From: Clostridia bacterium
GTDB taxonomy: Bacteria > Bacillota > DTU025
DNA: 39,863 nucleotides
NCBI GenBank assembly: GCA_034926675.1
Contig: JAYFQW010000089.1
Span: 1-39,863, forward strand
Direction of reading: 5' to 3'
Shown: piece by piece, positions 1,691-19,777 of the stretch
How the letters are laid out: the number at the start of each line of letters is the position of its first letter
How positions within the stretch are numbered: position 1 is the stretch's first letter
The notes under the pieces: generated by a model
The model's input: the letters and a program-made list of their open reading frames with translations, nothing else
What the model was told of the DNA's origin: nothing
Database searches by the model: none
Position numbers and translations under genes: made by a program

Positions 1691-3082
1691 TTGAAGGAGA
1701 AACATTTTCGCACAACATCCGATGCCAGAATCGCGGAAACCGCCGTACTGATTGGCGCCCTCGCCAAGTGGGTTCTTCTTGGTGCGCTGACCGGTGTCGT
1801 GGCAGGCGCTGGCGTGGTTGCCTTCCTCAAACTTCTCCATGGTGGTATCGAAATCGGCGCCCACATTGGTCTCTGGTGGCTCACTCTCCCGGTAGGCGGG
1901 CTAATCAGCGCTGCCCTGATACACTACGTCTCTCCCGAGTCGTACGGCCATGGAACTGAGGCTGTCATCAGGGCTGTGAACCGCAAAGGCGGGAAAATCC
2001 CCATTCTCGTCGCCCCCGTCAAAGCGGCAGCCACCATAATCGCCATCTCATGCGGAGCGTCTGCGGGGAAGGAGGGACCGTCTGCTCAGATCGCAGGTTC
2101 CCTGGCATCGCAGGTGGCCAGGCTCTTGCGGCTAGGCGCCGATGACCACCGGCGGCTGACCATGTGCGGACTTGCTGCCGGGTTCGGCGTAGTTACGGGG
2201 GCGCCGATTTCGGGGGCCGTCTTCGCAGTCGAGGCCCTGGTTATGGGCTCCCCGTTCTACGGTGGGCTCCTGCCAGCGGCGGTTGCTTCATGCACATCTG
2301 TCATCACTGCGCGTGCACTTGGATGGGACCATCCCCTCGCGGTTAACATCGTCGCACCGGCATTGTCTCCTTCAGTGATCCTGCTCGTAGCGGCATGTGC
2401 CATGGCTATTGGGCTCGTATCCATGGTGTTCATTGAGGCGGAGGAGCACTCGGCTCACCTGTTTCATCAGATCCCAGTTTCCCCACCGGTGCGCACCTCC
2501 ATAGGAGGCGTGTGCCTCGTGCTTCTGGCACTGTTGTTCTCCAGGGGATACCTCGGGCTAGGCGTTGAGATGTATGAGGAAACGCTGCAGGGAGGCGCGG
2601 TCTCAACGTGGGCGTTTGCGCTGAAGATGCTGTTCGTAGTGATCACACTCGGCTCTGGCTTCAGCGGAGGTGCGATGACCCCGATTTTCGCAATCGGCGC
2701 GGCGGCTGGAAGTTCCATCGGGCGACTGGCTGGCTTTGATCCAGCGTTCTCGGCAGCGATGGGCATCGCCGCGTTTCTGGCGGCCTCAGTGAATGCGCCT
2801 CTAGCGGCGTCGGTGTTGAGCTTGGAGGCGTTTGGTTCGGCCTTCGGAGTGTACGGGTTTGTGGCCGCCATTGTAGCCTACACTGTGGTGGGCCATCGGA
2901 GCATTAACGCCACTCAGCTTTTGGGATCGCCAAAGTCCAGTGCATTTTCGGTTGATGCTGGGCACGAGTGCGAGGCGCCAGGGCATGTCCGCTTCACGCC
3001 ACAAGCAAAGCGCATGTTCGCATTCCTGATGAGATCAAGGCCTTCGGAAGACCACTCCTCCGAGGCGGGCCAGCGCCACTGA
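1691..3082 (+). CDS. ClC-family chloride channel / H+-Cl- antiporter
   Basis: An integral membrane protein of 463 residues, normal for a bacterial ClC core without CBS domains. The family moves chloride or related anions, either as channels or in exchange for protons. Family motifs are visible. GKEGP at residues 126-130 contains the gating glutamate (Glu128), and GSGFSGGAMTP at 321-331 corresponds to the third anion-site loop. The first anion-site loop, usually GSGIP, reads GHGTE at 86-90, a substitution seen in some prokaryotic branches. Retention of the gating Glu argues against the fluoride-selective branch, which normally has a fluoride riboswitch and altered motifs. The start is TTG 1691, with GGGAGG 10 bases upstream. 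The last 48 bp overlap the 3' end of the convergent glycosidase gene. Confidence 0.9.
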   Translation: MKEKHFRTTSDARIAETAVLIGALAKWVLLGALTGVVAGAGVVAFLKLLHGGIEIGAHIGLWWLTLPVGGLISAALIHYVSPESYGHGTEAVIRAVNRKGGKIPILVAPVKAAATIIAISCGASAGKEGPSAQIAGSLASQVARLLRLGADDHRRLTMCGLAAGFGVVTGAPISGAVFAVEALVMGSPFYGGLLPAAVASCTSVITARALGWDHPLAVNIVAPALSPSVILLVAACAMAIGLVSMVFIEAEEHSAHLFHQIPVSPPVRTSIGGVCLVLLALLFSRGYLGLGVEMYEETLQGGAVSTWAFALKMLFVVITLGSGFSGGAMTPIFAIGAAAGSSIGRLAGFDPAFSAAMGIAAFLAASVNAPLAASVLSLEAFGSAFGVYGFVAAIVAYTVVGHRSINATQLLGSPKSSAFSVDAGHECEAPGHVRFTPQAKRMFAFLMRSRPSEDHSSEAGQRH

Positions 3083-5008
3083 GAGGTAACCTGCAAAGCT
3101 GGCGAAGGCTGCGCCTGTTGCGGGTTTTCCGGTGTCGCAGTATATGGTCTCACATGCAAGCCCTCCATCCAGGGGGGCTTCTTTCAATAGCTTCAATGAT
3201 TCCTCATCATGAAGGCCAGATAGCACCAGATTGCAGGCATGCATCGGCCATGGGCGGCGGGAATGCGCGCACCCCGCGCCGTGGTACTGACCATCTGTGG
3301 ATCGGTACGTGTTGTGATCCGAGGTGATGAACGCCACGGTGTTGAGAAAAGTCGGGTCGTCCGCGCTCACAAACCCGTAGTATGGGAGCAAGAGCAGACT
3401 CCCCGGTGGATCGTCGTAGACCTCACTAGCTGCGCGAAGATCTGTGGACCACGCGAACATGCGTCCGCAGGGTCCATCGATGATGCAATGGTTGATAATG
3501 GCTTCTCGGGTGTCGCGGGCTGCGGCCTCCCAGTGATCTCCGCTGGAGGACCCCGCGCGGAGCCGCGCAAGGCGGCTGAGAATGGTCAATGACTTCCATA
3601 TTAGGACATTGTCATATGTGAGATACGGATAGCGCACAGGATCATCGCTAGGATCGAGGAATGTCCTGTAAAGGGCGACATCGGGATCGCGCTGCTGTTC
3701 CAGGCATTCCGCGAATTTCGCGATTCCCGCCCCAATGCACGGCTCGTCCAGCACTGATTCATCGCCCGTTGTGTCCACAAAACTCCCCAGCGCGATGATG
3801 TACGAAGCTAGCTGATCCAGTTCGAAACCGGGATAGAGAACAGCCCCACTTATGTAGTGAGCGTGGATTCCCATGTTCCTGGCGTGCCTTGCGAATCCGG
3901 TCAGGAGGATCTCCCTCGCGAATCGGGCATCAGATGCGAGCATGGCGGGGAAGGCCCAGAGGAAGGCATCGCGCGGCCAGAAGGCTGCGGATACGTAGTA
4001 CCTGTGGCTTCTAGACGTCAGCATCACGAGTTCCTCAGTATCGATGGCTCGGGCGTGGGCATAGAACCTGCAAAAGTGCAGATTGCGGTTGGCGCGGGAG
4101 AGAACCTTGCTTGACGACTCCTCGGGACGTGCTGCATATGACCTTTTCGAGAGCCACTTCGCAGTGTCATTCAGCGCTTCCCACGCCCCTACGCGCCTGA
4201 GGTGCACTGAGGTGGCGCCTGCACCATCGGGGTCGGCATTTGCTGCCAGAACGAACGCGACTCGGATGCGCTCGCCTGCCGAGAGCTCCACGCGTGTGCG
4301 CAGACCAAAGTCGATTTCCCCGCCTTCGCGCGGCTTGACCCACCAATCGAAACCCAGGTCCGATGAGAGCGCGAGCGCCGCGAGGCTTGTCTCTCCTCTG
4401 GCCTCAAGCACCAGCGAGTTAGTCCACGAGGAGTAGTCCACATGCTTCGCCACGTGCATCGTCCGGCTTCGGAATACGGTGCTGAGAGTCGAACCCCACA
4501 GCCCCTCCAGGCCCACTGCGAGACGACGTGATGCTGAGCCGTCAGCGGCCGCAAGATGGTGAAGCTCGAACATGAAGTAGCATCCCCGCTCCTCAATGGA
4601 GGGGCATATAGTCAGAGTGAGGGACAGCTCATCGCCATCGGGCGTGTGCATCAGAGCGGATCCCCTCGGTATCCAGCTCTCTACGTACGTCCATTTGAGA
4701 GCGGCGGAAAGCTCCCACCTGCGACCTGTCTCGTCTTCCACGAAAGGCAGGAGAAATGGTCGGGGTCTGCGGTTCGCTGCACCACTGCGGTCGACCGAGG
4801 CCTCGGCGGTGGCTTCCGGTGCACCGGTATTGCCAACCCATTCGATTAGCCCTCTAGAGCCCATGTGCACAAGGTTCACACGGGCGATTCCTGCGTCGAA
4901 TGGAGAGATGTCCGGAAGTGCAATCCAATCATTGCCCGTAACTACAGGCGAGATCGAATCGCCGATCTCAGATGGGACAGTGAGGATGCGCTCAGGCTCC
5001 GGCTGCAC
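3035..5008 (-). CDS. Cytoplasmic six-hairpin glycosidase, GH125-like
   Basis: Predicted to cleave a glycoside; the substrate is unknown. The 657-residue protein has a beta-rich N-terminal half (about 1-290) and an (alpha/alpha)6-barrel-like C-terminal half. Motifs are WPRDAF at 344-349, LDQLASYIIALGSFVD near 398-412, YDNVLIWKSL near 465-474, YDDPPGSLLLLPYYG at 531-545 and CETIYCDTG at 619-627. The last two resemble the substrate loop and the HES-type catalytic Glu region of GH125 exo-alpha-mannosidases. GH15 or GH63-like assignments remain possible. There is no signal peptide, so it should act on imported or intracellular material. The start is GTG 5008, 6 bp after the deacetylase stop, with AAAGGAG 11 bases upstream. 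It is last in a four-gene operon and overlaps the ClC gene convergently by 48 bp. Confidence 0.7.
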   Translation of the reverse strand: MQPEPERILTVPSEIGDSISPVVTGNDWIALPDISPFDAGIARVNLVHMGSRGLIEWVGNTGAPEATAEASVDRSGAANRRPRPFLLPFVEDETGRRWELSAALKWTYVESWIPRGSALMHTPDGDELSLTLTICPSIEERGCYFMFELHHLAAADGSASRRLAVGLEGLWGSTLSTVFRSRTMHVAKHVDYSSWTNSLVLEARGETSLAALALSSDLGFDWWVKPREGGEIDFGLRTRVELSAGERIRVAFVLAANADPDGAGATSVHLRRVGAWEALNDTAKWLSKRSYAARPEESSSKVLSRANRNLHFCRFYAHARAIDTEELVMLTSRSHRYYVSAAFWPRDAFLWAFPAMLASDARFAREILLTGFARHARNMGIHAHYISGAVLYPGFELDQLASYIIALGSFVDTTGDESVLDEPCIGAGIAKFAECLEQQRDPDVALYRTFLDPSDDPVRYPYLTYDNVLIWKSLTILSRLARLRAGSSSGDHWEAAARDTREAIINHCIIDGPCGRMFAWSTDLRAASEVYDDPPGSLLLLPYYGFVSADDPTFLNTVAFITSDHNTYRSTDGQYHGAGCAHSRRPWPMHACNLVLSGLHDEESLKLLKEAPLDGGLACETIYCDTGKPATGAAFASFAGYLSVALARLGGVVFRRP

Positions 5009-5014
5009 GCGGGA

Positions 5015-5737
5015 TCAGTCTCCTTTCTCCGCTCCAAACCTGCTGCTCACCGTTGCGCCAGGTATGAGGATACGCTTGAACCCCTCGGCGTATTTGAATC
5101 CCGCTCGGGCGCCCATCTTGGTGGCTTCTTCGACAAGCGCACGATAGGTTTCCTCCCAGATGGCCTCCCACTGGCTGCGATGCCGCCGGAGGGCCGCTGC
5201 CTTCGCATCGAACGTGGTCGTGATGTCCATGAAATCGTCTGGATCGTCTGTGTTGAAAAGGAGAAGCTGCGTGACTGCCCATGTCCGGAGTCCATCTCTG
5301 AGCTGTTCAGGGAAGTACAAAGGCAGCTTGGCAGCAAGCCGTGCATCTAGGGCGGCAAAACCGATTTCGCGGTGATCCGGGTGCAGCTCATACCTGCGCC
5401 AGGGGTCGAAGGTGAGAAGGAGGTCTGGGCATAGGCGGCGGTAGATGCCTGCGAGTTCACGCCTTAGGTCAGGAGTGCAGCGCAGTTCCCCATCTTCGTG
5501 TCCGAGGAACACCACGTTTGCGAGGCCGAGAAGCTCCGCAGCGTCCCGCGCCTCTGCCCGTCGCTGGGAGGCAAGAACCTCGCTTGAGATCGCTGGGTCC
5601 ACGGCGCCTTTCTGGCCATCCGTGGCGATTACGAGGGATACCTCCCAGCCGTCGACTATCATAGCCGTCACTGCGCCTCCGCAGAAGAACTCTAGGTCAT
5701 CGGGGTGGGCGCAGACGGCCACGGCCCGTCTGTTCAT
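5015..5737 (-). CDS. PIG-L / LmbE family zinc deacetylase
   Basis: The family removes N-acetyl or similar acyl groups from amino sugars and their conjugates (MshB in mycothiol, BshB in bacillithiol, PIG-L in GPI anchors). The 240-residue length is typical. The zinc-site motif AHPDDLE is at residues 10-16 (His11, Asp14) and the third ligand motif HPDH is at 119-122. No signal peptide is present, so it is cytoplasmic. The ATG at 5737 overlaps the stop of the upstream nitrilase as ATGA, so translation is coupled. The glycosidase gene follows after 6 bp. The company of two nitrilase-fold proteins and a glycosidase suggests a pathway acting on an acylated amino-sugar glycoside. That is inference from neighbourhood, and the exact substrate cannot be read from sequence. 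Confidence 0.88.
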   Translation of the reverse strand: MNRRAVAVCAHPDDLEFFCGGAVTAMIVDGWEVSLVIATDGQKGAVDPAISSEVLASQRRAEARDAAELLGLANVVFLGHEDGELRCTPDLRRELAGIYRRLCPDLLLTFDPWRRYELHPDHREIGFAALDARLAAKLPLYFPEQLRDGLRTWAVTQLLLFNTDDPDDFMDITTTFDAKAAALRRHRSQWEAIWEETYRALVEEATKMGARAGFKYAEGFKRILIPGATVSSRFGAEKGD

Positions 5738-6912
5738 GATGTCATCGACTCCTCTGTTCCGTCCGCGTCGCCCCGAATCTCCCGTCTGCGGCGGTTCTGA
5801 GCAGCACGGTACATTGATGGCAGGTATTTTCGGTACAGCTCAAGGTTGAACCTGAGCGGGTTCTCTGCACGGTAGCTGTAGAGCAGGGGGATGTCGATCT
5901 CTCCAACCACGATCTCCTCCTGATCGTAGGTGAGAGCTTGCGCCAGGATCCCATCGCCCCCTGGAGATAGCTCGATAGGCGCTAGAATCGCGCTTCGGCC
6001 GGTGAAGGTTTCGCCTGCGAATGAGCCAACCATCGACGCTCCGATCCCGTACACCTGCGATTCCTGTACCCTGGGCCAGATGCCTCGAAGAGCGTGCCAC
6101 ATGTTGTATGGCTCATTGTTGGCCGAGGGGATAACCACAACATCTGCGCCTGCGAATCTGGCCAGGCGGAACGTCTCGAAATATGAGGCATCCATGCAGA
6201 TGGGGACTGAGAAAGCCGCTCCAGCCAGGCTGAACACTGGGACCGACCTTGCAGGCGATACCCCCCAGGCGGCCTCCACTGGCATGAGATGGGATTTGGA
6301 GTAGGTTCCCACGAGTTCTCCCCCTGGCGCGAATATGTATCCTGTCGAGCGCATCACTGACTCGTGATCGGAATCGGCTGGCAGGATCATGCTCCCAGAG
6401 ATAATGTACAGCCCAAGCTCCTTTGCAACCGACGAAAACGCTTCGCGGTAAGCCTGGGCAGCATACGGGCCTATGAGGCGGAAAACATCGAGAATGCCTG
6501 AGCCAGCGCCTCCTGCAGAGGCCGCGGCGTCGGACAGGGATCTAGCCCCAGACAGGGTCTTTTCGATGCCTGGAATCATGCCCAGGAGTGGCAGCCCACT
6601 ATACTCGGGGAAGGCAACCACAGATGCGCCTGCCTCTGCGGCCTTCCCAGCGAGCCTGTACACTAGCTCTACGTATTCCGTGCCTGAATGCACGATGCAC
6701 GCCTTCATCTGGATTGCTCCGCATGCCATGCGTTCAGGCACGGATCCCCCAGGCCGAGCCAGCCTGGAGCTGCGGGCGGCGGGCATATCTGAAAACCTGC
6801 CGTCGGCACTGCGGAGCCAGGCGGCGTGTCGTGAGATACGGAGTGGTTCCGATCTCCGGGCAAGGACCCCGTTGAGCGCACGCATCTTCAGAGAATCGAT
6901 AATACTCGACAC
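5734..6912 (-). CDS. Carbon-nitrogen hydrolase (nitrilase superfamily), apparently active
   Basis: The family hydrolyses non-peptide C-N bonds in amides or nitriles using a Glu-Lys-Cys triad. All three residues are visible: Glu103 in AFPEYSG, Lys206 in TYSKSHL and Cys239 in VPICMDAS. The 392-residue protein carries about 60 extra N-terminal residues ahead of the usual first strand (around CGAIQM). The start is still well supported, because GTG 6912 has GGAAGGTGA 6 bases upstream, overlapping the stop of the preceding gene. The extension is Arg- and Ser-rich, with no signal peptide or clear domain. The upstream gene encodes a close paralogue sharing the RGxWxxVQxxQVxG pattern. The stop overlaps the deacetylase start (ATGA). 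Substrate unknown; an amidase acting on a small conjugate is the natural guess. Confidence 0.87.
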   Translation of the reverse strand: MSSIIDSLKMRALNGVLARRSEPLRISRHAAWLRSADGRFSDMPAARSSRLARPGGSVPERMACGAIQMKACIVHSGTEYVELVYRLAGKAAEAGASVVAFPEYSGLPLLGMIPGIEKTLSGARSLSDAAASAGGAGSGILDVFRLIGPYAAQAYREAFSSVAKELGLYIISGSMILPADSDHESVMRSTGYIFAPGGELVGTYSKSHLMPVEAAWGVSPARSVPVFSLAGAAFSVPICMDASYFETFRLARFAGADVVVIPSANNEPYNMWHALRGIWPRVQESQVYGIGASMVGSFAGETFTGRSAILAPIELSPGGDGILAQALTYDQEEIVVGEIDIPLLYSYRAENPLRFNLELYRKYLPSMYRAAQNRRRREIRGDADGTEESMTS

Positions 6913-6918
6913 TGGGCG

Positions 6919-7896
6919 TCACCTTCCTTCCATGCCGCGTTCGGGCACGGTTCGGACTACTCGTGCCGATTGATAGGAGTCGGGCAGGGCCTCCTCATAC
7001 ATTCCCACATTGAGCTGCTCAAATAACGGGAAAGCCTTGCGGGCCTCAGTAAGCCTAACCGGGTTCAGCGCCACAACGAGCTCGCCCCAGATGGATCCGA
7101 AAGTGACCTCTGCTAGTGTGCCGCGGCCGTCGCTGGTTGCCTCAACTGGGGCGAACACGCGGGAACGGCCCTGATGCGCTACGCCAAGCCAGGAACCTGC
7201 GAGCGAGGATTCCACTCCGAAAACCTGGTTCTGCTGCACCACCTGCCAGAGTCCTCTTGTTTGCCGCCAGACCGTGTACGGGGCCGGCACTGCCGTTGGG
7301 GCGAGAATGGTGTCGACTCCGGCCAGCGCGAGAATTCGCCCGACCTCTGGGTACCACACATCGGTCCCGATGGCGATTCCCATCCGGTGTCCGTGTACAT
7401 CGAAGGTTGTCAGATCAGTGGAGCAGGCGAATCCCATTCGATACTCATCCTCGGAGACGTGGGTCTGGCCCTGCTCCGCGACGATGTCTCCATCTGGCGA
7501 GAAGATCGGGGCGGTATTCACGTAACCCGCCTCACCTGGAAGCAAGAAGGTTCCAGGACACAGATAGACCCTGTTCGATAGAGCAGATGCGGCGAAGAAA
7601 TCCATCCACCTGTGGTACGCGGCTGTTCCGGCAGCACTGGCAAGCTCGGCAACGCTCATGTTTGTGACTGTGGAAGCCGCGCCATCCTCCACTGAGTCAG
7701 CCAATGACCTGCCATCGCCTTGCTCTTGCAGTTCGAGGAATGCGCCGATCATTGCTGCATACTCAGGCAGCAGAACCAGCTCTGCGCCTTTACGCGCCAG
7801 AGACGAAATGCGTGCAGCCAACGATACCTGAAAATCGTGGACGGCGAGGAATTGTGACGGATCCATCTGGAGCAGACCACATGAAAGCACTCGCAC
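6919..7896 (-). CDS. Nitrilase-fold protein lacking catalytic Cys and Lys (probable pseudoenzyme)
   Basis: This 325-residue protein aligns along its length with the neighbouring nitrilase (residues 61-392 there). The Glu of the triad is kept (Glu45 in LLPEYAA). The Lys position is Gln144 (QGQTHV against YSKSHL) and the Cys position is Gly177 (IAIGTDVWYPE against VPICMDASYFE). It should therefore be unable to do normal nitrilase chemistry. The frame is intact and tightly packed in the operon, so it is not a decaying pseudogene. Nitrilase folds assemble as dimers or larger, so a regulatory or structural partner for the active paralogue is plausible; this is inference. I set the start at GTG 7896 because GGGGAGGTGA lies 7 bases upstream. 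The open frame extends further upstream without a comparable site. First gene of the operon. Confidence 0.85.
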   Translation of the reverse strand: MRVLSCGLLQMDPSQFLAVHDFQVSLAARISSLARKGAELVLLPEYAAMIGAFLELQEQGDGRSLADSVEDGAASTVTNMSVAELASAAGTAAYHRWMDFFAASALSNRVYLCPGTFLLPGEAGYVNTAPIFSPDGDIVAEQGQTHVSEDEYRMGFACSTDLTTFDVHGHRMGIAIGTDVWYPEVGRILALAGVDTILAPTAVPAPYTVWRQTRGLWQVVQQNQVFGVESSLAGSWLGVAHQGRSRVFAPVEATSDGRGTLAEVTFGSIWGELVVALNPVRLTEARKAFPLFEQLNVGMYEEALPDSYQSARVVRTVPERGMEGR

Positions 7897-7938
7897 GGCG
7901 TCGTCACCTCCCCGAGAGTATTCCATAATGTCCACACT

Positions 7939-8123: not shown

Positions 8124-9422
8124 TTGACGATGGTCTCTTCGGCAGAACCTGCATGGGAACTGGTTGTGCATCTTGCTGGCCCGGTGCTTCCAGATGCGCT
8201 CTCCGCTCCCCTCAGTATCGCTGTGCCGGCGCCTCCCAGGGATCTTGGCGTGCTGCAGCCTGATAGACCTGCGCATGTAAAGGCGGTGTATGCGACGGGG
8301 TGGATTGCCGGCCACTCCTCGCGCCTTGCCGACCTCCTCGCGCTCGTGCACTCCACTGAGTTGAACTCCGTGGTTATCGAGATCAAGGACGATACTGGCG
8401 TCGTGAGCTATCGGTCAGGAGTCGCTACGGCAGAGTTGATTAGGGCTTCCGTCGCCAAGATCCAGGACATCAGCGGTGCATTGGACCTTCTCAAGAAGAA
8501 CGGAGTGTACCCCATAGCCAGGCTAGTGGTGTTCAAGGACCCTGTTTTCGCCGCCGCCAGGCCCGATCTTGCCGTGCATGATGCATCAGGCAGGGTATGG
8601 CATGACAAACAGGGATCCACATGGACCGATCCGAGGCAAAGGCAGGTATGGGAGTACAACTTGGAACTGGCCAAGGAGGCGGCAGCGCTCGGCTTCCGCG
8701 AGATCCAGTTCGATTATGTGCGTTTTCCCGATGATGCCAGGCTCTCAGCGGCAAACGACACCGATTCCATGGGCAGAAGCAGATCAGACGTGATAGAGCA
8801 GTTCCTGGAGTACGCCTGGAAGGAGCTCGAGCCCACCGGGGTCGTCGTTACTGCGGATGTCTTCGGGCTCGTCTGCTCGGCCTCAACTGATATGGGAATT
8901 GGGCAGACCCTCCAGAGCATCGCGAAGCATGTGGACTACATCGCCCCCATGGTGTACCCTTCTCATTACCGAAAGGGCGAGTACGGCATCGCAAACCCCA
9001 ATGCACAGCCCAGGGAGACGGTTGCTCGCAGCCTGAAAGACGGTGCATCACGGCTTAATGCCTCCAAATCCCGAGCCAGGCTAATACCGTGGTTGCAGGA
9101 TTTCTCACTCGGCTATCCATACGGACCAGCTGAGGTCAGGGCACAGATCGATGCAGCGCTTGCCCTCGGCATACAAGAGTTTATGCTGTGGAGTCCACAC
9201 AATGTGTATACCCGGGCGGCTCTGCGCGGCCACGCTGCTGCGGACGATCCCCCAGCTAAAGGCCTTCATCCACCCGCGACTGATCCAACCGCGCCTTCTC
9301 CTCCAGTGACGGAGGCCGCAACAGGAGTGGAGCTGGATCTTCGTCTTGATGATGGGCTCGAACCGGTTCCGCTGTTCGCCCCGGTGGCGACGCAGCAGAT
9401 AACGCTATCTACAGGGTTCTGA
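8124..9422 (+). CDS. Putative glycoside hydrolase, DUF4015 (PF13200), probably membrane-anchored
   Basis: A TIM-barrel-like protein of the DUF4015 family, putative glycoside hydrolases of unproven activity. Family-like stretches include VKAVYATGWIAG, VVIEIKDDTG, FREIQFDYVRFPDD and DYIAPMVYPSHY, followed by a Pro-rich tail after about residue 375. The first canonical start is TTG 8124, but it lacks a good ribosome binding site. The frame stays open upstream to a TGA at 8007-8009 and encodes a basic stretch followed by a hydrophobic segment (LVALAFFIFSTAFSALAI, 8058-8111), a likely signal anchor. No ATG, GTG or TTG precedes that segment in frame. CTG 8016, 9 bases after GAAGGA, is the best candidate start, or a frameshift joins ATG 8006. 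I therefore suspect the true protein has about 36 more residues and is exported. Confidence 0.82.
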   Translation: MTMVSSAEPAWELVVHLAGPVLPDALSAPLSIAVPAPPRDLGVLQPDRPAHVKAVYATGWIAGHSSRLADLLALVHSTELNSVVIEIKDDTGVVSYRSGVATAELIRASVAKIQDISGALDLLKKNGVYPIARLVVFKDPVFAAARPDLAVHDASGRVWHDKQGSTWTDPRQRQVWEYNLELAKEAAALGFREIQFDYVRFPDDARLSAANDTDSMGRSRSDVIEQFLEYAWKELEPTGVVVTADVFGLVCSASTDMGIGQTLQSIAKHVDYIAPMVYPSHYRKGEYGIANPNAQPRETVARSLKDGASRLNASKSRARLIPWLQDFSLGYPYGPAEVRAQIDAALALGIQEFMLWSPHNVYTRAALRGHAAADDPPAKGLHPPATDPTAPSPPVTEAATGVELDLRLDDGLEPVPLFAPVATQQITLSTGF

Positions 9423-15597: not shown

Positions 15598-15694
15598 CAT
15601 GACACTCGCCGGGCAGGGCTCTGGAGGAACTACTTCCTGGCGATCTCGTCTAATCGTGGGAACGACACGCACACTACGGGGGAGGGAAAGCGCA

Positions 15695-18600
15695 ATGAAT
15701 CCTACACGGCGCGCGTCATTCCTTGTGGCTTTGTTGCTCTGCGCGTTGATGATTCTACCGGTTGGAGCGGGCGCGCAGTCATCGGCCTACGAATACATCG
15801 TCAGGGGCGAGCAGTATCTGAGCCAAGGGTATGCTGACGATGCGATACGCGAGTTCGGGCAGGCCATCGCTTTGGAACCCGCCAATACCAGGGCTCATTT
15901 TGGACTAGGACGTTCGTATGAACTCCGGTCCGGGGCGGGGCGGGTTCTCGCCTACCGGATGGAACTGATGACGGAGTCGGAATCAGTCAGGTCTCTCGAG
16001 TTTCCGCCGCTTGCGGATCGGGGATACCAGGACCTGGACCAGGCAATAGCTGAGTACGCCAAGGCAGTCAGCTATTCCCCTGCGTATAATGAGGCGTTCT
16101 ATCGCCAGGGGGCGCTGTACTTCGCTTCAGGCAGGAAAGCTGAGGCCCGCGCTGCGCTGGAGCGAGCGGTGGCCTTCGATCGCACATCGCCTGCATCAGC
16201 GGCCCTGTTGGCCCAGGCGTACCTTGAGGACAATCAGGTGCAGGCGGCATCCTCGGTGATCACTGCGGCAAGGTCAGCCGGGGCTGACCAGTGGAACCCG
16301 CTGCTGTTGGATGCATCCGGGGTTATTGAGCACAGGGCCGGCAGGTACGATTCGGCGGAGCAGCTTTTCGCGCAGGCTGCGAACGGCATAGAGGCTCCGG
16401 CATACGTAGTGAAGCATCTAGGTGATGCCCGAGCCATGCGAGGTTCGCACGCAGCTGCCCTCGATGCTTTCAGGCAGGCCGCATTCAGGGATTCCGATGC
16501 CATACTCGCGAAGGACGCGCTGGGAAACATATACAGACTGTCAGACCAGCCAGCGACTGCTGCTGACTACTTTGCCGCTGCAGCGACCGCGAACCCAGGA
16601 CTCATCCGGGCAAGGTTCGGCCTAGGCTCCGCTTACCTCGAATCGGGGCAGGCAACAAGGGCGGTGCAGGTCTTCACTGAGCTTGCTGACGCTATGCCCG
16701 TCTTCGGGTCCGACACTGCTCTCACACTCAAGGCCATCGCCCAGTGGAGATCGGGCAATGCCGGAGCTGGTCTCACTACGATCAACGATGCGCTCGGCAT
16801 TAACCCATCCAACCGCATTGCCCAGATCTACAAGCCGCGCATTGAGGCAGATGCACGCCCTGCTGGGGTCGGCGCGCTTTCGCTGTCTCCGAGATCGGTT
16901 GATGTTACCCCCACATCCGGCATCAAGCCGTTCTCAGGGGTGGTCATTAACAAAGGCGCGAAGGCAACCAACAACGTCAACGTGAAACTCGCTGTGTACA
17001 GCGAGTATAAGCAGGTATCATTCTCGAATGACAACTCCAATTGGAGCACCTGGTTTGCGAAGGATGCAGAATACGGGGAGTTTGCGTGGACACTGTCTTC
17101 CGGCGATGGCCAGAAGACAGTGTATGTGAGGTTCCGCGGGTTCCTATGGTCTGTGATACCCGGCGAAGCAGGTTCAATTACCCTCGACACCACGCCGCCT
17201 ACGGTTCAGGCAAGCATGTCCCAGTTGCAGCAGGTCGGATACACTCCTGACAACAGAGTCAGGATCACCCTCTCCGCTAGCGACGCAAGCGGGATAGCAG
17301 GCTTCTGGCTATCGAGCAACGGTGCGGACTGGCGCTGGTTCCCATGGTACCAAGGGGAATTCGCTGTGGCGATGCCAGCCTACGGCCAGTCTCAGTTCAA
17401 GGTGTTCCTGTCGGTGGTGGATGGGGCAGGCAACCACGGGTCAGCAGAGGCCTCGCAGGTCCCCGCTGATACCCGACCGCCCGTAATCTCAGGCATACAG
17501 GCTGCCAGAGGTGCGTATGACTTTGTCGTCGTCTCCTGGGTGACTGATGAGTCCTCCGATTCGTTCGTTGAGTACTGGCAGACGGGCCTGCTGCCCGGAA
17601 CGCCGAAGAGAGCCGGAAACTTCGACATGACCACAGCTCACTCGGTGCCCATTTCCGGGCTTCGCACTGGTGTTGCCTACGGGTACAGGGTCATTTCCCA
17701 GGATGCGGCGGGCAATCGTTCGCAATCCGCTGATATGACCCTCAGAATCGCCCAGCAGGATACCACTGCTCCTACAGTGAGGCTTACGATAAACTCCGGT
17801 GCGCGTTACACCAACAGCAGAAGCATACGGCTTGAGATCACTGCTCAGGACGATTCGGGTGGACCGCTGGAGATGACCGTAAGGGATGATAGGTCGTCCT
17901 TCGGACCATGGCAGCCGTATAGCGCCTACGCTTCCTGGCAGCTATCGGCTGTCGATGGGGTGCGCACCGTCTCAGTGCGCGTGCGTGATGCTGCTGGAAA
18001 TGAGGCACAGGCCGATTCGTCGATCACCATGGACACGATGCCCCCGTCCATCAGCCGTGTGGACGCGAAGGCGATCGGAACCAGCAGCGCGTCCGTAACA
18101 TGGACCACAAACGAGGCTTCCGATTCGTACGTCGAATACTGGACGTCCGGCACTCCGGCAAAGGTAGGCTTTGCCGAGATGGTCACCGCCCACTCCGTCA
18201 CATTGTCCGGGCTCAGAACAGGAGTGACGTACGGATTCCGTGTCATGTCCCAGGATGCGGCGGGCAACCTTGCTCAGTCGCAGGATTTCACATTCAGGCT
18301 GCAACCGCAGGACTTCACACCGCCAACTGTGAGGCTCCGGATCAACGGTGGAGCGCAATCTGCCAGTAATCGGCTGCTGCAGCTTGAGATAACTGCCCAG
18401 GATGACTCTGGCGGGCCGCTGGAGATGTCGATCAGAGATGACCGCACCTCGTTCGGTGCGTGGCAGCGCTACACTACGTATGTCTCCTGGCAACTCAGTG
18501 CGGGCGACGGCAGGCGCATGGTGTCGGTGAAGGTGCGGGACGCTGTCGGCAATGAGACGCAGACCGATGCGTACATCACCATTGACACAACACCCATCGC

Positions 18601-19777
18601 TAACCCGCCTACAGGAGGCATTTCCATCAATAATGGGGCAGTATGCACCAGATATACTGCGGTGCAGCTCAGTATCTCGGCACGGACCGATTCGGGAGGT
18701 CCGATTGAGATGCGCCTGAGGGAGGGTGCGGGGGGCTGGACTGGCTGGCAGCCCTACGCCTCGCAGATGACATACAGGTTCACCCCTGGAGATGGCGCAA
18801 AGACCGTGTATGTTGAGTTCCGCGACATGTATGCGAATGTGAGCCGCACGTACTCCAGTTCGATCACCCTCGACACGCGTGCGCCGAGGATTACGAACGT
18901 GCGATCCTCGAATGTGGCCACGAACTCGGCCACGATAACGTGGAACACCGACGAATCTGCGACCTCGACTGTGGAGTTCGGGCTGTCCGGGATAGGCATG
19001 AGCAGCTCCATGGGTGACAGGTCAGTCTCATCGTCTGAGGCATCACAGCCTGCGGGGGATGTGGGCTCAAAGGCAGTGATCGTCACCCCCGTGAATCCGG
19101 GATCGCTGCGCACGAGCCACAGCGTAGCGCTGACAGGGCTCAGGGATGCAACCACCTATTATTATCAGGTAGTATCTAGGGACGCGGCCGGGAATGTGGC
19201 GGTCTCCTCGGGCTACTCATTCACGACCCAGGGCAGCGCGCCGCCGCCGCCTCCTCCCCCGCCGCCTCCTCCGCCTCCACCGCCTCCACCGCCTACGCCA
19301 GGTGGAACGATGGTGAACTGGGCCGCGGCATCGAACGGAGGGAGGGCGAGCGCATCGTCCTTTGCTGCTGCGAATTCCGCTGGACCAGGCAAACCCAGTC
19401 TGCTTGCGAACGACGGCAACACGAGCACATTCTGGGAGGCCAGGAATCCTGGCGACGGATCTACTTCCGAATGGCTAATGATCGAGTTCTCACGTGCACA
19501 GAATATCAACGGCATCAAGCTCCAGTGCGATGCAGCGCACTTCCCAATGGACATGTCGGTGGAGGTGGAAACGAATGGACGCTGGATCCAAGTTGCGACT
19601 GTTGCCTCCAAGGGACAGTTGGAGAAATACCTGAAGGCCTCGGGCAGCTCTGCGACATTCGAGTTCTCGTTCAGTGTCGTGTCTGCCACAAAGGTTCGCT
19701 TCGTGATCAGAAGGGTATCGAACCCGACTGTCCCAGTCCAGGTGCGTGAGGTCGAGGCATACTACACCGGCAAGTAG
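15695..19777 (+). CDS. Secreted multidomain protein: TPR, Ig-like, fibronectin III, discoidin
   Basis: Unknown role; its build suggests a surface or extracellular adhesin or scaffold. The signal peptide is residues 1-28 (GAGAQS cut region). TPR-like repeats fill about 30-385 (for example GYADDAIREFGQAIALEP). Ig-like domains lie at about 392-500 and 500-594. Modules then alternate: fibronectin III near 593-689, 782-872 and 1062-1182 (WTTNEASDSYVEYW, HSVTLSGLRTGVTYGFRV, SQDAAGN), and Ig-like units near 690-781, 873-967 and 968-1061 (DDSGGPLEM, DGxxTVxVxxRD). A proline run of about 18 residues leads to a C-terminal F5/8 type C (discoidin) domain, about 1206-1360. I chose ATG 15695 because GGGGGAGGG lies 8 bases upstream and it begins exactly at the signal peptide. 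Internal modules are similar at DNA level, indicating duplication. It lies 97 bp after asnS. Confidence 0.88.
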   Translation: MNPTRRASFLVALLLCALMILPVGAGAQSSAYEYIVRGEQYLSQGYADDAIREFGQAIALEPANTRAHFGLGRSYELRSGAGRVLAYRMELMTESESVRSLEFPPLADRGYQDLDQAIAEYAKAVSYSPAYNEAFYRQGALYFASGRKAEARAALERAVAFDRTSPASAALLAQAYLEDNQVQAASSVITAARSAGADQWNPLLLDASGVIEHRAGRYDSAEQLFAQAANGIEAPAYVVKHLGDARAMRGSHAAALDAFRQAAFRDSDAILAKDALGNIYRLSDQPATAADYFAAAATANPGLIRARFGLGSAYLESGQATRAVQVFTELADAMPVFGSDTALTLKAIAQWRSGNAGAGLTTINDALGINPSNRIAQIYKPRIEADARPAGVGALSLSPRSVDVTPTSGIKPFSGVVINKGAKATNNVNVKLAVYSEYKQVSFSNDNSNWSTWFAKDAEYGEFAWTLSSGDGQKTVYVRFRGFLWSVIPGEAGSITLDTTPPTVQASMSQLQQVGYTPDNRVRITLSASDASGIAGFWLSSNGADWRWFPWYQGEFAVAMPAYGQSQFKVFLSVVDGAGNHGSAEASQVPADTRPPVISGIQAARGAYDFVVVSWVTDESSDSFVEYWQTGLLPGTPKRAGNFDMTTAHSVPISGLRTGVAYGYRVISQDAAGNRSQSADMTLRIAQQDTTAPTVRLTINSGARYTNSRSIRLEITAQDDSGGPLEMTVRDDRSSFGPWQPYSAYASWQLSAVDGVRTVSVRVRDAAGNEAQADSSITMDTMPPSISRVDAKAIGTSSASVTWTTNEASDSYVEYWTSGTPAKVGFAEMVTAHSVTLSGLRTGVTYGFRVMSQDAAGNLAQSQDFTFRLQPQDFTPPTVRLRINGGAQSASNRLLQLEITAQDDSGGPLEMSIRDDRTSFGAWQRYTTYVSWQLSAGDGRRMVSVKVRDAVGNETQTDAYITIDTTPIANPPTGGISINNGAVCTRYTAVQLSISARTDSGGPIEMRLREGAGGWTGWQPYASQMTYRFTPGDGAKTVYVEFRDMYANVSRTYSSSITLDTRAPRITNVRSSNVATNSATITWNTDESATSTVEFGLSGIGMSSSMGDRSVSSSEASQPAGDVGSKAVIVTPVNPGSLRTSHSVALTGLRDATTYYYQVVSRDAAGNVAVSSGYSFTTQGSAPPPPPPPPPPPPPPPPPPTPGGTMVNWAAASNGGRASASSFAAANSAGPGKPSLLANDGNTSTFWEARNPGDGSTSEWLMIEFSRAQNINGIKLQCDAAHFPMDMSVEVETNGRWIQVATVASKGQLEKYLKASGSSATFEFSFSVVSATKVRFVIRRVSNPTVPVQVREVEAYYTGK

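Follow-up and report, generated by a model that had tools for sequence, protein, structure and literature searches.

A nitrilase-fold protein that has lost catalytic residues, and that is maintained as a pseudoenzyme, is encoded at the head of a four-gene operon in the window (the entire 39,863-nucleotide stretch of Clostridia bacterium DNA analysed here). This protein, called NITA, is probably a partner subunit of the intact nitrilase NITB that is encoded directly after it. The core of the four-gene arrangement that is conserved far beyond the window consists of the NITA-NITB pair, a GH125-like glycosidase and a sugar transporter, and on balance we favour an explanation in which the operon is a catabolic module for an imported glycoside bearing a carboxamide or carbamoyl group. 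No other feature of the operon is as informative as the dead nitrilase, a point that was missed by the first-pass annotation, which had otherwise correctly told the dead nitrilase from the live one.

The four genes lie in series on the minus strand, in the order NITA, NITB, LMBE and GH125-like. The features are as follows.

7904..7911, minus strand: ribosome-binding site of NITA (GGAGGTGA), read directly from the sequence
6919..7896, minus strand: NITA, nitrilase-fold pseudoenzyme, 325 aa, GTG start
5734..6912, minus strand: NITB, intact nitrilase-superfamily amidohydrolase, 392 aa
5734..5737, minus strand: ATGA in which the NITB stop codon overlaps the LMBE start codon, read from the sequence
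5015..5737, minus strand: LMBE, PIG-L/LmbE zinc hydrolase, 240 aa
3035..5008, minus strand: GH125-like glycosidase assigned to clan GH-L, 657 aa

Gaps of 6 bp separate NITA from NITB and LMBE from the GH125-like gene, and these junctions, together with the ATGA overlap, are consistent with the single operon proposed in the first-pass annotation. Pfam assigns CN_hydrolase domains to NITA (41 bits) and NITB (61 bits) and a PIG-L domain to LMBE (99 bits). No signal peptide was apparent by eye in the operon proteins. A consensus scan returned no promoter-like site on the minus strand, and its terminator-like matches were isolated and all located within coding sequence.

Catalytically competent members of the nitrilase superfamily carry a Glu-Lys-Cys triad, which NITA lacks. 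In the window protein the catalytic Lys is replaced by Gln144 and the Cys by Gly177, whereas both Glu residues (45 and 151) are kept. Among 70 NITA domains compared, none retains the Lys, six retain the Cys and five retain the first Glu, and the window protein reaches 49 bits against a cut-off of 410 for an NCBIfam nitrilase equivalog. NITA is nevertheless maintained, because the dN/dS values in the close pairs listed (0.09-0.28, near the NITB value) indicate purifying selection. Residues P183, Q222, N223 and E229 are fixed in NITA at positions where NITB differs, and conservation is high at the dead site, with Asn223 at 100%, Gln222 at 97%, Glu229 at 95% and Gln144 at 91%. The dN/dS values and these NITA-specific residues together rule out a decaying pseudogene.

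NITB, by contrast, carries the full tetrad (Glu103, Lys206, Glu213 and Cys239), and thus by sequence is predicted to be catalytically competent. The tetrad is complete in 78 of 80 orthologues, the first Glu falling in an alignment gap in the other two, and the Lys, second Glu and Cys are present in all 80; since the pattern used to scan loci contained the catalytic Cys, retention of that residue is biased by selection, whereas the Glu and Lys counts are free of this bias. NITA and NITB share their fold with the N-carbamoylputrescine amidase, Nit2 and archaeal nitrilase branches, and NITB also has the triad of these enzymes. It differs from them in having a conserved, basic N-terminal extension and a C-M-D-A-T-Y-F-E motif, and it falls below every NCBIfam equivalog cut-off (55 bits against 500 and 31 against 410 in comparisons with AguB, archaeal nitrilase and deaminated glutathione amidase).

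A profile search with NITB yielded 80 relatives and their loci. Many are in named Bacillota records, including Thermovorax, Acididesulfobacillus and metagenome-assembled genomes (MAGs) labelled Symbiobacterium, Thermaerobacter and Syntrophomonadaceae; further ones are in Hakubella, in one Atribacteria MAG and in a few others. In 74 of the 80 loci the gene immediately preceding NITB is a NITA gene (median gap -4 bp). In the remaining six, NITB begins less than 250 bases from a contig edge, so a NITA neighbour could not have been seen. A tree of both proteins recovers NITB as one clade (support 98) and NITA as nearly one clade, or as two groups, with long outgroup branches, a topology from which a single duplication is the likely origin of the pair.

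The two proteins are fused into a single reading frame in six pairs. The two-domain nitrilase subgroup of CDD (cd07578/cd07579) may be comparable, in that its proteins also contain two nitrilase domains. An AlphaFold2 model of one fused homologue, built from an alignment of 7 rows, has a pTM of 0.81 despite a low-confidence linker of ~120 residues, and its best structural matches are N-carbamoylputrescine amidase, Nit2 and archaeal nitrilase. By our own expectation, a model with no defined placement of one domain relative to the other would reach a pTM of roughly 0.4-0.5, and the higher value favours a confidently placed, defined NITA/NITB interface, at least in the predicted structure. From the pairing and the fusions we infer that NITA and NITB form a heteromer, which we regard as likely. 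The contribution of NITA to such a complex could take more than one form. Its dead pocket might serve as a ligand sensor that binds the amide or product and allosterically controls NITB or another partner, without taking part in the NITB site, and the conserved NITA-specific residues Gln144, Asn223, Gln222 and Glu229 suggest that a pocket function has been retained. However, fusion and constant pairing fit a purely structural subunit equally, and a structural role requires no ligand; we therefore consider the sensor role unlikely, if worth keeping in mind, beside that of a partner subunit.

Heteromeric nitrilases are described from plants in the form of sorghum NIT4A/NIT4B (Jenrich et al. 2007, cited in PMC5154151). 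NIT4A/NIT4B2 is reported to hydrolyse a nitrile derived from the glycoside dhurrin (PMC5154151), and this heteromer in dhurrin turnover is the nearest functional precedent. Both systems would bring two nitrilase paralogues together in one complex, which for NITA/NITB is a prediction. Compared with these plant branch-1 nitrilases, NITA differs in lacking the Lys, and mostly the Cys, in all sampled lineages, and the NITA/NITB genes differ in being part of a bacterial operon with a glycosidase.

Near the window, the identical four genes occur in identical order in other members of the window's family and in one genome of its sister family, and LMBE is present in all nine of these genomes, with the window included. 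The contig ends within the GH125-like gene in two of them (G002 and G006). In a third genome of low completeness (G007), one in-frame stop splits the NITB reading frame (L040:4342-5576). No match to the set was found in the third family of the order. The first-pass annotation had named as the decisive contrary result that the four genes would be together in no related genome, and the set is instead kept in relatives at the family and order levels. The genes aspS and guaB adjoin it wherever the contig reaches, and a CLC channel gene does so in several genomes. Shared housekeeping synteny could thus account for linkage near the window only, and we reject it as the general cause because distant loci keep NITA, NITB and the glycosidase gene with other neighbours and in other orientations.

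The glycosidase is predicted with high confidence (pLDDT 91.7) to consist of an N-terminal beta-sandwich and an (alpha/alpha)6 barrel. In the PDB it best matches GH15 glucoamylase and dextran dextrinase along its full length, and GH125 along the barrel. Pfam PF06824 (Glyco_hydro_125) is matched at 73.3 bits against a gathering score of 23.4, through profile positions 205-379 of 414, the C-terminal half only. The closest comparison is to the GH125 exo-alpha-1,6-mannosidases CpGH125 and SpGH125, in which the protein's barrel, aligned acid Asp and base Glu, and W-x-R-D motif all have counterparts. In CpGH125, Asp220 is the catalytic acid, Glu393 is the base and Arg405 holds the nucleophilic water, and the W-x-R-D motif belongs to the -1 subsite (PMC9883506, PMC9425025). 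D455 and E620 align with this acid and base and are invariant in 33 of 33 aligned GH125-like proteins, and W344-x-R346-D347 resembles Trp62, Arg64 and Asp65 by motif rather than by residue alignment. In contrast, the position of Arg405 is occupied by an invariant Gly632 (aligned through 3p2c), identity in the structural matches is 16-19%, and the protein, at 657 residues, is ~220 residues longer than the single-domain barrel of ~430 residues, with a beta-sandwich like that of GH15 glucoamylase. Because of the glycine and the extra N-terminal domain, we place the protein, as far as its model allows, in clan GH-L beside GH125 and outside the canonical family, as an enzyme that may prefer either glucose or mannose.

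The association between this glycosidase and NITB is evident at the level of whole genomes. Among 398 genomes of the phylum, strong matches to both were found in 52, to NITB only in 18, to the GH125-like protein only in 8 and to neither in 320. The glycosidase is thus present in 52 of 70 genomes with NITB versus 8 of 328 others (Fisher p about 7e-41, ignoring phylogeny), and by family code NITB occurs in 35, the GH125-like protein in 32 and both in 26. Of the 80 named loci, 37 have a GH125-like gene in the neighbourhood of NITB, where it may be upstream, downstream or on the opposite strand. Transporters recur in the same neighbourhoods, with an MFS_2/GPH symporter family gene in 22 NITB loci and another MFS gene in six; an Amidohydro_2 gene occurs in five. 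No transporter gene adjoins the operon in the window, and the protein in its genome that is most similar to the linked GPH symporter is only 29% identical.

GH125-like genes that are unlinked from the pair have comparable surroundings. One (L181) belongs to an operon with LacI and CUT1 ABC genes, another (L179) is beside SBP, Amidohydro_2 and ROK genes, and a third (L176) is beside Opp transporter genes. By gene content, the setting of GH125-like genes appears to be sugar uptake and catabolism. Directly after the glycosidase gene of L181 is a single, exported-looking CN hydrolase with Glu-Lys-Cys intact (L181:8905-10014), which seems to be another amide hydrolase paired with a GH125-like glycosidase. 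The Amidohydro_2 protein recurs beside the glycosidase (L124:2734-3726 and L179:11520-12554), with no LMBE seen next to it in those genomes, and may take the place of LMBE or have the aglycone as its substrate.

Instead of degrading an imported compound, the enzymes might make or turn over an internal amide-bearing glycoside, such as a compatible solute resembling mannosylglyceramide, with the MFS protein acting as an exporter or recycler. The cytoplasmic appearance of the proteins and the NITB loci that have no transporter nearby are compatible with this arrangement. However, the GPH symporters and the CUT1, LacI and ROK neighbours suggest that external sugars are imported, and no glycosyltransferase is among the recurrent neighbour families inspected, which leaves an internal role improbable. 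Catabolism of a glycoside taken up from outside is, in our assessment, fairly probable.

By sequence, LMBE has the metal motif of the LmbE-like superfamily, an HXDD sequence plus a distant His (PMC4101496), in the form H11-P-D13-D14 and H122, with the spacing of TkDAC. Its nearest solved relatives are archaeal diacetylchitobiose deacetylases (144 bits, full-length), from which it differs in genomic setting. Strong matches of this type are confined to the window's family, its sister family and one further genome (G149); there the LMBE-type gene adjoins the GH125-like gene, and a separate contig carries the NIT gene. The LmbE gene near another locus (L069) is instead a BshB1 equivalog. We therefore reject LmbE as a member of the core; by its distribution LMBE appears to be a lineage-specific addition that is most closely linked to the glycosidase.

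This distribution bears on the kind of compound proposed in the first-pass annotation. Its suggestion that a glycosylated, amide-bearing compound is dismantled in the cytoplasm gains support, as an interpretation, from the conserved association of NITA-NITB with the GH125-like protein and a transporter. The acylated amino sugar that it also invoked is unnecessary for the core, given how rarely LMBE is found. All four enzymes could still act on a single glycoside of an acylated amino sugar, for example a fragment of the chitobiose or N-glycan type or a compound resembling an aminoglycoside. GH125 enzymes remove alpha-1,6-mannose, and the similarity of LMBE to diacetylchitobiose deacetylase and its adjacency to the glycosidase gene in both families and G149 suit such a substrate. 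We nonetheless consider it rather unlikely, since most genomes with NITB and the GH125-like protein have no LMBE of this type and the core must act without it, and the LmbE of L069 points elsewhere. Thiol conjugates, named in that annotation among the substrates to assay, would in another reading be detoxified by LmbE and amidases acting on compounds of the bacillithiol or mycothiol type. LMBE does match BshB1 (TIGR04001) at 93.3 bits and Mca weakly, but both matches are below cut-off (182.5 bits for BshB1), and the 97% complete genome has no BshC and no BshA over its cut-off. A role in bacillithiol or mycothiol conjugate metabolism is thus disfavoured to the point of being very improbable.

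For the favoured catabolic module, the order of steps that we infer begins with import, by the sugar transporter, of a glycoside with a carboxamide (or carbamoyl) substituent. Its non-reducing sugar would then be cleaved off by the GH125-like enzyme, with inversion and with D455 and E620 as acid and base. Within a NITA:NITB complex, NITB alone would hydrolyse the C-N bond by means of its Glu-Lys-Cys residues and release ammonia, whereas NITA would take no part in catalysis and, as a subunit, would shape or regulate the NITB site. In the lineage of the window, LMBE would also strip an N-acyl group. That the amide is carried by the same glycoside is the more tentative part of this scheme, with a chance slightly short of even.

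Other enzyme classes include known cases of pseudoenzyme partners. For bacterial nitrilases, limited searches of the open-access literature returned no description of one, no earlier account of pseudo-nitrilases, tandem nitrilases or GH125 clusters and, as the first-pass annotation had stated, no pathway with this gene set. It is possible, though we would stop just short of calling it probable, that the operon represents an ancient bacterial amidase of the enzyme:pseudoenzyme type, with a dead nitrilase paralogue as a required subunit of a live one, together with an undescribed amide-glycoside pathway and a new family of clan GH-L. The NITA-NITB pair, kept across the divergence of many Bacillota families and naturally fused in some, offers a clean system for studying the role of a dead subunit. 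Judging by the linked glycosidase and transporters, thermophilic anaerobes and anaerobes of sediments appear to use a natural product or glycan fragment that has yet to be characterised, and the linked enzymes provide a short list toward finding that compound.

Several other features of the window were recorded. Upstream of the operon is a divergent gene for a DUF4015 putative glycosidase (8124-9422), followed by aspS and guaB. Its canonical start is a TTG at 8124, the frame is open back to 8010 and includes a hydrophobic segment (ILVALAFFIFSTAFSALA), and relatives are ~30 residues longer; a non-canonical true start or a sequence error might explain this. Downstream, the CLC channel gene converges with the GH125-like gene, and the two overlap on opposite strands by 48 bp (3035-3082). 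An inverted repeat of 16 nt (94% complementary, 36-nt spacer) is located at 6677-6744, in the early NITB coding region. Farther away, positions 15599-19777 encode a 1392-residue protein with TPR repeats, Ig-like, fn3 and purple acid phosphatase N-terminal domains and F5/8 type C domains, which is conserved in the window's family.
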